From NCBI RefSeq assembly GCF_958304185.1, contig NZ_OY284433.1, positions 1,798,001 through 1,862,000 of the forward strand: a stretch of 64,000 bases of DNA, given 5' to 3'. The notes beneath the pieces were generated by a model. That model was not told the DNA's origin and searched no databases. It saw only the letters and a program-made list of their open reading frames with translations. The DNA is from an uncultured Erythrobacter sp. (GTDB taxonomy: Bacteria > Pseudomonadota > Alphaproteobacteria > Sphingomonadales > Sphingomonadaceae). Both the position numbers and the translations under genes were made by a program. Shown here piece after piece: positions 23,965 through 31,824 of this stretch (within the stretch, counting starts at the first letter, position 1; the number at the start of each line of letters is the position of its first letter).

Positions 23965-24213
23965 ATGAGCATTCCTCCTCCCGAAGTCCTGCTGGTCGAT
24001 ACGCGGCGCGTTTCCTGCGACGGGGCCAGCGGCATCCGCGCCCGCGCCGGCTATCGCCCCTCCGCGCTCGGCCATCCGCGCGTGTTCCTTGAGATCGACG
24101 AACATGGCTATGTCGATTGCGGCTATTGCGACCGCCGCTTCGTGCTGCGCGGTGGCCCGGCGGATGGTGCGGATCAGGCGGGCCTGCCCGATATCGCTGC
24201 GGGCGCCAGCTGA
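23965..24213 (+). CDS. Zinc-finger (zf-CHCC) protein, NDUFS6-like
   Basis: An 82-residue protein with the CHCC zinc-ligand pattern: a Cys in RRVSCDG, a His in LGHPRVFLEI and the pair in VDCGYCDRRFVL. The family is related to the mitochondrial complex I subunit NDUFS6; in bacteria it is a small cytoplasmic protein of unclear role. It is divergent from the ABC ATPase gene, with 72 bases between starts. Confidence 0.88.
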   Translation: MSIPPPEVLLVDTRRVSCDGASGIRARAGYRPSALGHPRVFLEIDEHGYVDCGYCDRRFVLRGGPADGADQAGLPDIAAGAS

Positions 24214-29147: not shown

Positions 29148-29471
29148 ATGCGTTTCATTCTCCCCTTGATCGCCCTCGCCGCCGTCGCAGCTCCCGTTGC
29201 CGCAGAGCCGGCAGCTGAGCAGATCGTGACCGTTCGCATTGCCTATGGCGATGTCGACGTGACCACGTCGGAAGGCCGCGCCGCGCTCGAAGCGCGGATT
29301 GATGCCAAGCTGCGTCAGGCCTGCACCGTCGAAGCCGCTGGCCGCTACAGCGCCGGCCGCACCTCGGTCGACAGCAAGTGCGTGGCCGAAGCCCGCACCG
29401 TCGCGCTCGCCGAAGTCGAACGGGTTGCCGCGATGCAGGCCCGCAGCGGTCGCACCGTCGCCGCCAACTGA
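29148..29471 (+). CDS. UrcA-family secreted protein
   Basis: A 107-residue protein from ATG 29148 with signal peptide MRFILPLIALAAVAAPVAA. The mature part has the UrcA-family pattern: VTVRIAYGDVDVTTSEGRAALEARI, a cysteine in LRQACTVE and a second Cys in SKCVAEARTVALAEV. UrcA proteins are small secreted proteins typical of Sphingomonadales and related groups, of unknown function; the two cysteines probably form a disulfide. A strong terminator follows. Confidence 0.85.
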   Translation: MRFILPLIALAAVAAPVAAEPAAEQIVTVRIAYGDVDVTTSEGRAALEARIDAKLRQACTVEAAGRYSAGRTSVDSKCVAEARTVALAEVERVAAMQARSGRTVAAN

Positions 29472-29493
29472 GCCGCGCCAAGCCTCTGAAATG

Positions 29494-29526
29494 AAACGGC
29501 CGCCGGAGCGATCCGGCGGCCGTTTT
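29494..29526 (+). terminator. Rho-independent terminator after the UrcA gene
   Basis: ACGGCCGCCGGA (29496-29507) pairs perfectly with TCCGGCGGCCGT (29512-29523) around a four-base loop, followed by a short T-run (TTTT including the last paired T). It lies 22 bases after the UrcA stop. Confidence 0.85.
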
Positions 29527-29632
29527 GATTCAATTTGAGGCGCACATTGTTGCAAGTCTTGCAACTAACCTTGGTGTTTTCTCATTTGAATTCGAGGCCG
29601 CGCAACACCACTTCGCCGATTGAGCGATGCGT

Positions 29633-29852
29633 TGCCGGGCCCCTCTCTCCAAACCGGCATTCTTCCATGTGGAGCCATCGCCCGGGCGCGGCATCCGAAC
29701 ACGGATCCGTTGCCTGCCTGCCTGACCGGCAGGAGCGGCCAGCGCCCCCCCTGCTTGGCCCTCCCGCCCTGTCTCCGTCCGGCCCAACGCCGGACATGCA
29801 GCGAACGAGACGCGGCCACCGGCCTCCCCCCCTTAATAGGTGGCCGCGTCTC
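29633..29852 (+). ncRNA. Candidate structured RNA region: consecutive hairpins with C/U-rich loops
   Basis: No convincing gene is present. On the plus strand there are four hairpins: 29633-29659 (TGCCGG/CCGGCA, loop GCCCCTCTCTCCAAA), 29737-29760 (GGCCAGC/GCTTGGCC with one bulge, loop GCCCCCCCT), 29777-29795 (GTCCGGC/GCCGGAC) and 29807-29852 (a perfect 14-base stem GAGACGCGGCCACC with loop GGCCTCCCCCCCTTAATA). C/U-rich loops that can pair with Shine-Dalgarno sequences are a known signature of alphaproteobacterial regulatory RNAs. I found no clear promoter for this part, and the strand is inferred from the loop composition. Confidence 0.4.
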
Positions 29853-29964
29853 AAGCCGCTCATCCCCCCAGATCGCCACACATTCAGCCGCCTCGCCGCG
29901 TGCCACCCCCCGGTGATTGCCTTTTTCGATTGCGGTGATGAATTATTTTCAGTCTTGTGAGTGA

Positions 29965-29994
29965 TTGAATATTGCGCGCGACTTTGTATATGAT
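29965..29994 (+). promoter_or_regulatory. Predicted sigma70-type promoter of the 27-residue peptide transcript
   Basis: TTGAAT (29965-29970) is followed after 18 bases by TATGAT (29989-29994); TATATG with a 16-base spacer is an alternative reading. The predicted start, seven bases on, is near 30001, exactly the first base of the hairpin at 30001-30041. The local DNA is AT-rich compared with its surroundings. Confidence 0.6.
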
Positions 29995-30000
29995 GTTCCG

Positions 30001-30041
30001 GTCCGGGCAGTCCTCTCCCCCCTCCCCCCGATTGCCTGGAC
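30001..30041 (+). ncRNA. 5' leader hairpin with an all-pyrimidine loop
   Basis: GTCCGGGCAGTC (30001-30012) pairs along its whole length with GATTGCCTGGAC (30030-30041), using ten Watson-Crick and two G-U pairs. The 17-base loop contains only C and T (CTCTCCCCCCTCCCCCC). It would form the very 5' end of the transcript from the promoter at 29965-29994 and could sequester Shine-Dalgarno sequences in trans. Confidence 0.5.
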
Positions 30042-30075
30042 TCCCAAACAACAACAAAACAGGGAAACCCGAACC

Positions 30076-30159
30076 ATGAACATGATCAGCGAAAAGGTTA
30101 TCGCCTTGCTGCTCGCCGTTGCTATCAGCGGCACCGCGTTCAACACGTTTATCGTCTAG
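30076..30159 (+). CDS. 27-residue hydrophobic membrane peptide
   Basis: ATG 30076 is preceded by AGGGAAACCCGAACC and encodes a 27-residue peptide: a short polar start (MNMISEK), then one continuous hydrophobic helix (VIALLLAVAISGTAFNTFIV) ending at the stop. A single transmembrane span is expected. It has its own promoter, a structured leader and a strong terminator, which supports a real transcript. I do not recognise a family; a type I toxin-like or regulatory membrane peptide is possible, but no antitoxin RNA was identified. Confidence 0.6.
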   Translation: MNMISEKVIALLLAVAISGTAFNTFIV

Positions 30160-30211
30160 GGCCTCAAGCCTCAGATATCGTGGAACGCTAGCACAAAAGC
30201 GAAACCAACAG

Positions 30212-30252
30212 CGGCCCGGCTCCTCTCTCGAGGAGCCGGGCCGAGCCGTTTT
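30212..30252 (+). terminator. Strong rho-independent terminator after the small peptide gene
   Basis: CGGCCCGGCTCCTC (30212-30225) pairs perfectly with GAGGAGCCGGGCCG (30230-30243) around a TCTC loop, and CCGTTTTA follows. It also separates this unit from the convergent acyl-CoA ligase gene ending at 30262. Confidence 0.8.
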
Positions 30253-30261
30253 AGGGCCCCG

Positions 30262-31824
30262 CTATTCCACCCCGCCTAACCATGCCGCTTCTTCGCGCAG
30301 GTCGGTCTTGAGCAGCTTGCCGATATGGCTGCGCGGCATTTCCGCAATCGGGTGCAGCGCAGCGAGCCGCTGGGTCTTGCCGAGCCGCGCGTTGACCGAC
30401 GCCATGATTGCCTCAGGGTCTGCCGCGCCGTCCTTCAGCACCACGAAGCCGACCGGACTCTCTCCCCATTTGCGCGACGGCATCCCGACCACCGCTGCCT
30501 CGGCGACGCCGGGTTCCCTGCACAATTCGGCTTCGAGGTCGGAGGGGTAGATGTTGAACCCGCCCGAGATGATCATGTCCTTGGCGCGGCCGACCAGTTC
30601 GACGAAGCCTTCCGCGTCCACACGGCCGATATCGCCCATCCGCATCCATGCCTCACCGGTCACAGGGTCGATCCACTGCGCTTCCGCCGTCTTGTCCGGG
30701 CGGTTCTTGTAGCCGCTCATCATGGTGAGGCTGCGGCCGATCATGTTGCCCGGGGTGCCGGGCGGCACTTCGCGGTCTTCATCGTCGAGCACTTTCAATT
30801 CGCTCCCCGGCGCAGGGCGGCCGACGGTGTGGAGCTTGTCGGGGAATTCGTGGCACGCCAGCAGGCACACCACGCCGCCTTCGGTCATCGAATAGATCTC
30901 GATCAGCCCGCCCGGCATCCGCGCCAGCACCTCGCGCTTGAGTTCCGCCGAGAACGGCGCGGAGGTGCAGTATTTGAGCTTCAGGGACGAGAGATCAAAG
31001 TCGTCGAAGCGCTCGAAATCCATCAGCCGCTGGTATTGCACCGGCACCAGCATAGTGATGGTTGTGCGATCACCTTGGGCAAAGGCAAGCCACTTGGCGC
31101 AATCGAACTTGCCCATCACCCGGACGCAGCCGCCCGCGAGTAGCACGGGCAGGAACGCGACCATGGTGGTGTTCGAATAGAGCGGGGTAGAGGCGAGCGA
31201 GCGCACGTCGATCCCGGCGCTGAGGTAGCTGAGCCCGGTCGAAGCGAATTGCCGCCAGCGCATCTGGTGCGAATGGACGATGCCCTTGGGAATGCCGGTC
31301 GTGCCGCTGGAATAGATGATATTGAACGGGTCTTTCGGCTCCAGTGCGAAGGCGGGCGCGCGGGTGCCCGGAGGGGCCATCCACTGATCGATGCTCTCCA
31401 GCGGCACACGGATCAGGTCGGCCATGAAGTCGGTGCCGAGTTCCGCCGCCTTGGCCGCATCAATGAACAGGTGCACCGCGCCCGAATCCTTGGCCATCCC
31501 CGCAAGTTGTTCGGGCGAGGCGCTGGTCGTCAGCGGAGCAGCCACGCCGCCTGCGCGCATCGCTGCCAAGAACACCAGCGCATATTCGACCGTGGAGGTG
31601 CCGAGGATCGCGACCGATTGCCCGCGCTGCAATCCCGTCTCCACCAGCCGCGCCGCCAGCCGCTCGACCAGCCCGACAAGTTCCGCCCAGTAAACCTCCC
31701 GCTTTTCGTCGATCAGCGCGAGGTCATCGCCCTTGATGCGCGACCATTCCATCAGGATGTCGGGGAAGCTACCGAAGGGTTCGGCGAGGCGGCTCATCAT
31801 CATGTCGTGGCTCATGGGGGCCAT
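30262..31824 (-). CDS. Acyl-CoA synthetase (AMP-forming, ANL superfamily)
   Basis: A 520-residue enzyme; ATG 31824 (MAPMSHDMMMSRLAEPF) is chosen, and ATG 31815 is an alternative. ANL motifs: the P-loop IIYSSGTTGIPKGIVHSHQM, the A5-type YSMTEGG, MRMGDIGRVDAEGFVELVGRAKDMI and the catalytic Lys near the C-terminus in LLKTDLREEA. It activates a carboxylic acid to its CoA thioester; the chain length or class of acid is not predictable. It is divergent from the PIG-L gene, with about 80 bases between starts. Confidence 0.92.
   Translation of the reverse strand: MAPMSHDMMMSRLAEPFGSFPDILMEWSRIKGDDLALIDEKREVYWAELVGLVERLAARLVETGLQRGQSVAILGTSTVEYALVFLAAMRAGGVAAPLTTSASPEQLAGMAKDSGAVHLFIDAAKAAELGTDFMADLIRVPLESIDQWMAPPGTRAPAFALEPKDPFNIIYSSGTTGIPKGIVHSHQMRWRQFASTGLSYLSAGIDVRSLASTPLYSNTTMVAFLPVLLAGGCVRVMGKFDCAKWLAFAQGDRTTITMLVPVQYQRLMDFERFDDFDLSSLKLKYCTSAPFSAELKREVLARMPGGLIEIYSMTEGGVVCLLACHEFPDKLHTVGRPAPGSELKVLDDEDREVPPGTPGNMIGRSLTMMSGYKNRPDKTAEAQWIDPVTGEAWMRMGDIGRVDAEGFVELVGRAKDMIISGGFNIYPSDLEAELCREPGVAEAAVVGMPSRKWGESPVGFVVLKDGAADPEAIMASVNARLGKTQRLAALHPIAEMPRSHIGKLLKTDLREEAAWLGGVE

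Follow-up and report, generated by a model that had tools for sequence, protein, structure and literature searches.

At 29965-30252 on the + strand of the window, the whole 64 kb stretch of DNA analysed here from a genome of 3.29 Mb, lies what would be a short dual-function mRNA, in which a pyrimidine loop pairs in trans and a single-helix membrane peptide is encoded on the same molecule. We give this reading roughly even odds (about 0.5). The earlier note on this DNA had raised the idea of a dual-function RNA, and it has since gained a coding signal, compensatory changes in the hairpin stem and the same layout in other genera; that the loop acts in trans is the part we infer. Judged by shared layout, the candidate RNA-plus-peptide class is one that recurs across the window's bacterial family.

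Locus layout and predicted transcript

Along the + strand the order is UrcA-family gene, terminator-like hairpin, hairpin array, promoter-like site, hairpin, ORF and hairpin. A CoA-ligase-like gene on the opposite strand converges on the peptide locus from the right, and since it faces the opposite way, the 27-codon ORF is no obvious leader peptide of a downstream gene. Relatives of the CoA-ligase-like protein in named records come mostly from Erythrobacter and Porphyrobacter, the top one being from Porphyrobacter sp. SLTP (96% identity). The features are as follows.

29148-29471, + strand: UrcA-family gene, 5' of the array
29492-29527: terminator-like hairpin between the UrcA-family gene and the array (consensus scan)
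29549-29565, no strand assigned: inverted repeat GTTGCAAGTCTTGCAAC upstream of the array (14 genus loci aligned, 13 with sequence there)
29577-29588, + strand: TTTTCTCATTTG, putative promoter-region element of the array RNA (from comparison)
29634-29658, + strand: array hairpin 1, loop GCCCCUCUCUCCAAA (sequence, centroid fold, similar letters in aligned genus loci)
29737-29760, + strand: array hairpin 2, loop a run of C (sequence, centroid fold, genus alignment)
29807-29852, + strand: array terminal hairpin GAGACGCGGCCACC / GGTGGCCGCGTCTC, with a C-rich loop that is not purine-free (covariation, model R2)
29946-29971, no strand assigned: inverted repeat TTTTCAGTC-N8-GATTGAATA, overlapping the -35; a possible operator
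29965-29994, + strand: promoter-like site of the peptide transcript, TTGAAT-18-TATGAT (sigma-70-like consensus scan), predicted +1 at 30001
30001-30041, + strand: 5' hairpin of 12 pairs with a C/U-only loop at 30013-30029 (fold, covariation, model R1)
30042-30065, + strand: leader in which UCCC (30042-30045) can pair with GGGA (30062-30065) at the SD, with an A/C-rich stretch between (fold)
30076-30159, + strand: 27-codon ORF for the single-helix membrane peptide MNMISEKVIALLLAVAISGTAFNTFIV (homologues, coding signal)
30212-30252, no strand assigned: terminator-like hairpin (30212-30243) plus U4 (30249-30252), adjoining the end of the convergent CoA-ligase-like gene

Transcription start at the hairpin base, translation of the ORF and the transcript end are all predictions from the DNA letters. 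The promoter described in the earlier note was recovered as the sole sigma-70-like match on either strand of 29400-30400 (mean 0.2 in 50 shuffles). In 12/14 genus loci, own locus counted, a script places -10-like letters 4-5 nt from the hairpin base; its two exceptions (2 in L002, none in L005) read as 4 and 5 by eye. Such a near-constant distance supports, without proving, the start at 30001, which remains a predicted one. A repeat like TTTTCAGTC-N8-GATTGAATA was seen by eye in 10/14 aligned genus loci. At the other end, the hairpin that had been called a strong terminator is present with 14 pairs, but "strong" was generous: the + strand tail, AGCCGUUUU, is short, and the consensus scan scores the stem as a terminator on the minus strand alone, 3' of the convergent CoA-ligase-like gene. 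The description of a self-contained transcript likewise needs tempering. Promoter, hairpin, ORF and end hairpin are in place, but the consensus scan found no terminator between the last array hairpin and the peptide promoter, so a longer read-through RNA from the array is possible.

Conservation of the hairpin and the peptide

The hairpin at the predicted +1 is as first described, with 12 pairs and a 17-base loop made only of C and U (CUCUCCCCCCUCCCCCC, 30013-30029), and its stem covaries in relatives. Two of the 12 pairs are G-U, and an extra G-U (30000/30042) can be added. The 252-nt RNA folds with z = -6.66, and none of 200 shuffles is equally stable. In the stem alignment, which comprises 13 of 23 genus loci and leaves out L014 (weak hairpin) and the loci without a 5' hairpin, 92.6% of stem cells are paired, against 52.9% in the best slid register. 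The earlier note had named a lack of conservation as a refutation, but peptide and hairpin each proved conserved, the former in 23/37 same-genus genomes (own included) and the latter with both sides changed in 8/13 pairs of the 13 aligned leaders (0/500 shuffles).

Whether such a hairpin might arise by chance depends on how strictly it is defined. Over 64 kb and both strands, a pyrimidine run of at least 12 with at least 11 pairs occurs twice (shuffle mean 0.08; 1/200 shuffles reach 2), at 30001-30041 and at array hairpin 29807-29852. Runs of at least 10 with at least 11 pairs are also seen twice (mean 0.28; 4% of 200 shuffles reach 2), and runs of at least 9 with at least 10 pairs four times (mean 1.4; 6.5% of 200 shuffles reach 4). 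A lax scan (run of at least 9, at least 8 pairs) gave no excess, with 8 seen against a mean of 6.9 in 30 shuffles. The excess thus fades as thresholds loosen, and it is the comparative evidence that decides the question of chance. A pattern search of the own genome for similar C/U-type loops also gave no global excess (79 and 64 matches; reversed control 93 and 62).

Model R1, built on hairpin and leader, matches 25/61 genus genomes at E<1e-6 and 39/61 at E<=1. Among the 41 rows below the top 25, 11 were read as possible paralogues and all were other things: seven are hairpins 5' of an ORF that we take to be tsf-like, without a C/U loop, one is a terminator 3' of a BufA2 gene, and three look unrelated. 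In L199, which has the highest ligase identity among the named relatives, the loop contains AA. Several hairpins in the own genome and its relatives are recorded here in their own right. Just 3' of an ammonium-transporter gene, a hairpin at L123:1285-1325 (own genome C1, from 2210784) again has 12 pairs and a 17-base loop of C and U only, and a second hairpin with a T7 tail comes next; here the design recurs in a 3' UTR. L113 (own genome C1:381368-381410, minus strand) is a C-rich-loop hairpin with a T run directly 3' of a BufA2 bufferin gene. A conserved GC-rich hairpin, perhaps an rpsB-tsf intergenic control element, lies at G000:C1:723515-723589 and in six genus relatives (L112, L114-L119), directly 5' of the tsf-like ORF.

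The transmembrane peptide of the earlier note is likewise present, as a 27-codon ORF running from the ATG at 30076-30078 to the stop at 30157-30159, and it is conserved with an in-frame coding signal. At E<=1 it matches 25/61 relatives, namely the same-genus genomes counted above and two outside the genus (L023, L024), the latter chance matches inside long unrelated ORFs. Pooled pN/pS is 0.34 in frame (14 sequences; single pairs up to 1.57), while the two shifted frames give 0.89 and 2.27 (11 of the 14 sequences). Around relatives of the ligase in named records, mostly Erythrobacter and Porphyrobacter, the peptide is found in 38/48 loci, a set that overlaps the same-genus one, some records being the same genomes. 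Among these 38 loci, the script detects a 5' C/U loop in 25, and the pattern search finds the array's terminal hairpin in 26. The leaders of 12 of the 13 without a detected loop were read by eye: pyrimidine runs are still there in L210, L222, L224, L228 and L235, shorter in L209 and L225, and absent from L230, L233, L243 and L244, while the leader of L220 is cut by a contig end.

Across the 54 related peptides collected in the family, no D, E, K or R occurs after position 9. By reading, the length is 27 residues in 48/54, 26 in five and 28 in one (L174, start unsure); script starts for L168 and L171 were off and were re-read, and the search model forces no stop at 27. The window peptide matched no family at E<=1 in Pfam, NCBIfam or PHROGs, and five other related peptides had no matches in the libraries each was run against (types B and C left out of NCBIfam).

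The neighbouring array and its relatives in other genera

The earlier note had remarked that the neighbouring array shares the loop style, and the likeness goes further: the array (29634-29852) is the same kind of RNA, and elsewhere it encodes such a peptide. For its terminal hairpin, 97.6% of cells are paired in 21 sequences and 5/14 pairs changed on both sides, which 1/500 shuffles reaches (set A3, leaving out L011 inadvertently, L012 for want of sequence and L025 for want of a pattern match). In several other genera a TTTTCTCATTTG-type element is followed after ~17 nt by TATTAT-like letters, and the GTTGC..GCAAC-type repeat is also found upstream of peptide genes in other genera (both by eye).

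Model R2, of the terminal hairpin, matches 28/149 family genomes at E<=0.1 (20/96 genera), and 13/149 in nine genera at E<1e-5; some weak matches are not relatives, L139 and L142 looking like unrelated hairpins behind genes. A peptide of the same kind lies nearby in 13 of the 28 R2 loci read, and inside the array in eight. In these eight loci of other genera, the 27-residue ORF stands within the array ~130 nt 5' of the terminal hairpin, and a 5' C/U loop was detected in 7/8. The layout of hairpin and peptide, which the earlier note had suggested looking for in relatives, therefore recurs in other genera of the family. L134, also of another genus, has both peptides in tandem.

Model A5, of the peptide, matches 38/199 family genomes at E<=0.1 and 22/199 at E<1e-3. 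Among loci from the family and order-level searches, 29 were read, and weak partial ones (among them L182, L184, L186 and L187) were left out; order-level matches outside the family, weak and partial, are not counted. A C/U-loop hairpin lies within 95 nt 5' of the start codon in 27/54 peptide loci, which is not an unbiased rate since the 54 loci are related and A5 was built from peptides beside array hairpins plus L038, against 1/245 control ORFs (at least 150 residues, mechanical starts, sampled stretches of the own genome only). By group, these are 14/23 genus loci and 13/31 others, and 444/466 letters of the 27 loops are C or U. Type B leaders were poorly aligned in the right arm, and covariation was therefore left uncounted on that alignment.

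Two further patterns were seen among these loci. In L017 and L019 a C/U-loop hairpin lies directly 3' of the peptide stop, as if the hairpin module moves. L173, L176-L179, L181, L183, L188 and L196, from other genera, encode 27-residue VLPxxAAASxSG-type peptides with no detected C/U loop; among those read, several carry GTTGC..GCAAC-like repeats upstream, and terminator-like hairpins lie downstream (by eye).

The peptide ORF is missing from the window's array while the hairpins remain, which suggests that the hairpins act as RNA. No array ORF of 24-30 codons was found at E<0.05 in the other genus loci L001-L022, L025 and L199-L246 (L240 has one doubtful peptide match, outside the array). L258, of the same genus, has promoter element, short C/U hairpin, 26-residue ORF and terminal hairpin in its array (hairpins by eye). 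Seven of the ten named loci that lack the peptide were read, and five of these keep an array (by eye). Probably the two neighbouring RNAs descend from a single ancestral transcript of the form hairpin-peptide-hairpin: one RNA-plus-peptide unit would have been duplicated and the array's ORF then lost. Within the clade of the window, this would have left the array copy with its RNA part only and the 30001 copy with both. A peptide of 27 residues is too short to yield a reliable tree.

Modes of action and nearest known systems

In our favoured reading, transcription would start at the base of the 5' hairpin, whose exposed loop consists of pyrimidines only, and the RNA would then encode the 27-residue single-helix peptide and end at a hairpin. 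The C/U loop, like the array loops, would base-pair in trans with other mRNAs at their purine-rich ribosome-binding regions and lower their translation, composition mattering more than exact order, and the peptide would sit in the inner membrane with a second, separate activity. Against 87 SD-supported start regions, the loop pairs with a median of -8.8 kcal/mol, compared with -4.9 for gene interiors; three shuffled C/U loops pair with the start regions equally well, and the start set was chosen by SD motifs. Pairing energies do not depend on loop order, and no seed is conserved in the loop. That array hairpins persist in loci where no ORF was found is the best argument for RNA action in trans.

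The foremost competing account, to which we assign a clearly smaller but substantial share of belief, places everything in cis: the 5' hairpin would protect its mRNA against 5'-end-dependent decay, peptide translation would be set by CCC/GGG pairing or by a loop-SD pseudoknot, and there would be no action in trans. The hairpin begins at the predicted +1, and a hairpin at the transcript start is typical of known 5' stabilisers. CCC and GGG flank the A/C-rich spacer in 13/13 aligned leaders (U in 10/13 by eye), which points to some control in cis; being invariant, they leave no covariation to test. They are the best argument for a cis layer, and both layers may exist. The SD type also tracks the loop in the genus set, being CAGGGAA-like in L001-L014 (CTGGGAA in L006) and AGGAG-like in 5/9 genus loci without a detected C/U loop. 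This is largely one phylogenetic split, and L021 combines a loop with an AGGAG-type SD. Against a cis-only account, the loop of L006 retains UCCCU despite its different SD (by eye). Pairing of the loop with its own SD is ordinary (-6.4 kcal/mol; 62/87 SD-supported starts pair more strongly), hairpins of this kind persist in arrays for which no ORF was found, and a plain stabiliser gives no reason for the pyrimidine bias of the loops.

Conservation of loop composition rather than order would also fit a docking site for proteins, e.g. Rho, cold-shock protein or S1, with the RNAs as sponges or attenuators. The primary site of Rho prefers YC, but 17 bases are short for a Rho loading site, and we consider this account unlikely. 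An ordinary small-protein mRNA with an incidental hairpin and loop would agree with the half of the peptide loci that lack a detected 5' C/U loop, which implies that the peptide can do without it, and with shuffles at lax thresholds, in which such hairpins are no rarer; stem covariation already disfavours it, as do the comparison with control ORFs and the recurrence in other genera, leaving it very improbable. A type I toxin with an antisense RNA, suggested by a small hydrophobic peptide on a structured short mRNA, is hardly credible given a single match per matching genome, conserved synteny and no antisense promoter-like site in 29400-30400 (consensus scan only).

The cuckoo RNA family reportedly unites alpha-r14 (NfeR1, SmelA075/099) and CcsR1-4. 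Published descriptions give alpha-r14 and SmelA075/099 three or four adjacent hairpins, whose stems vary and whose pyrimidine loops are anti-SD-like, and CcsR RNAs are co-transcribed with a small-protein gene. The likeness to cuckoo/alpha-r14 lies in several adjacent hairpins with similar loops and variable stems, here three in the array and one at 30001 (four in the L019 array). These are the nearest known kind of RNA, but two defining features, loop motif and DUF1127, are lacking here. The loop is a variable C/U run rather than the ultraconserved CCUCCUCCC, which has no match at the locus and one in the window (23974-23982; at least one in 47/100 shuffles), and unlike in CIN1/CcsR the partner is a 27-residue membrane peptide and not DUF1127, for which the own genome yielded two weak matches below the cut-off and none above it. 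With 6C RNA (RF01066) the array shares C-rich-loop hairpins and a weak alignment (21.1 bits against a gathering score of 47, E 2.7), and it is not a member. Neither in the window nor in five related loci did any Rfam family score at or above its gathering threshold.

As in dual-function RNAs, we find a conserved coding sequence and an RNA part with its own conserved structure. VcdRP similarly joins a C-containing base-pairing part and a small protein on one short RNA, with a 29-residue VcdP and four consecutive cytosines required for regulation by VcdR (PMC8672173); it differs in bacterial class, layout and peptide, and dual function here is a prediction from sequence. The single-helix membrane protein YohP of E. 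coli, of 27 residues (PMC7549839), resembles our peptide in size and membrane nature only, and no homology is claimed. Among the matches listed from open-licence PMC articles, no such RNA was recognised in sphingomonads, a result that concerns those articles rather than print at large.

A bolder extension, which we hold as tentative and rather doubtful, is a new dual-function RNA class whose loop is coded by composition (pyrimidines, in any order) and coupled to a membrane peptide of near-invariant length. Such a loop would be a generic sensor of purine-rich ribosome-binding sites, and the nascent peptide could tether its own RNA at the inner membrane, where the loops would then act locally on mRNAs translated there.

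Collectively, sphingomonads gain a candidate dual-function RNA family with many natural variants, including loci with both parts, with hairpins only and with a peptide but no detected 5' C/U loop. These variants make it possible to ask how a single transcript comes to carry both an RNA regulator and a tiny protein, and their comparison, together with simple mutants, could show whether loop composition alone regulates.
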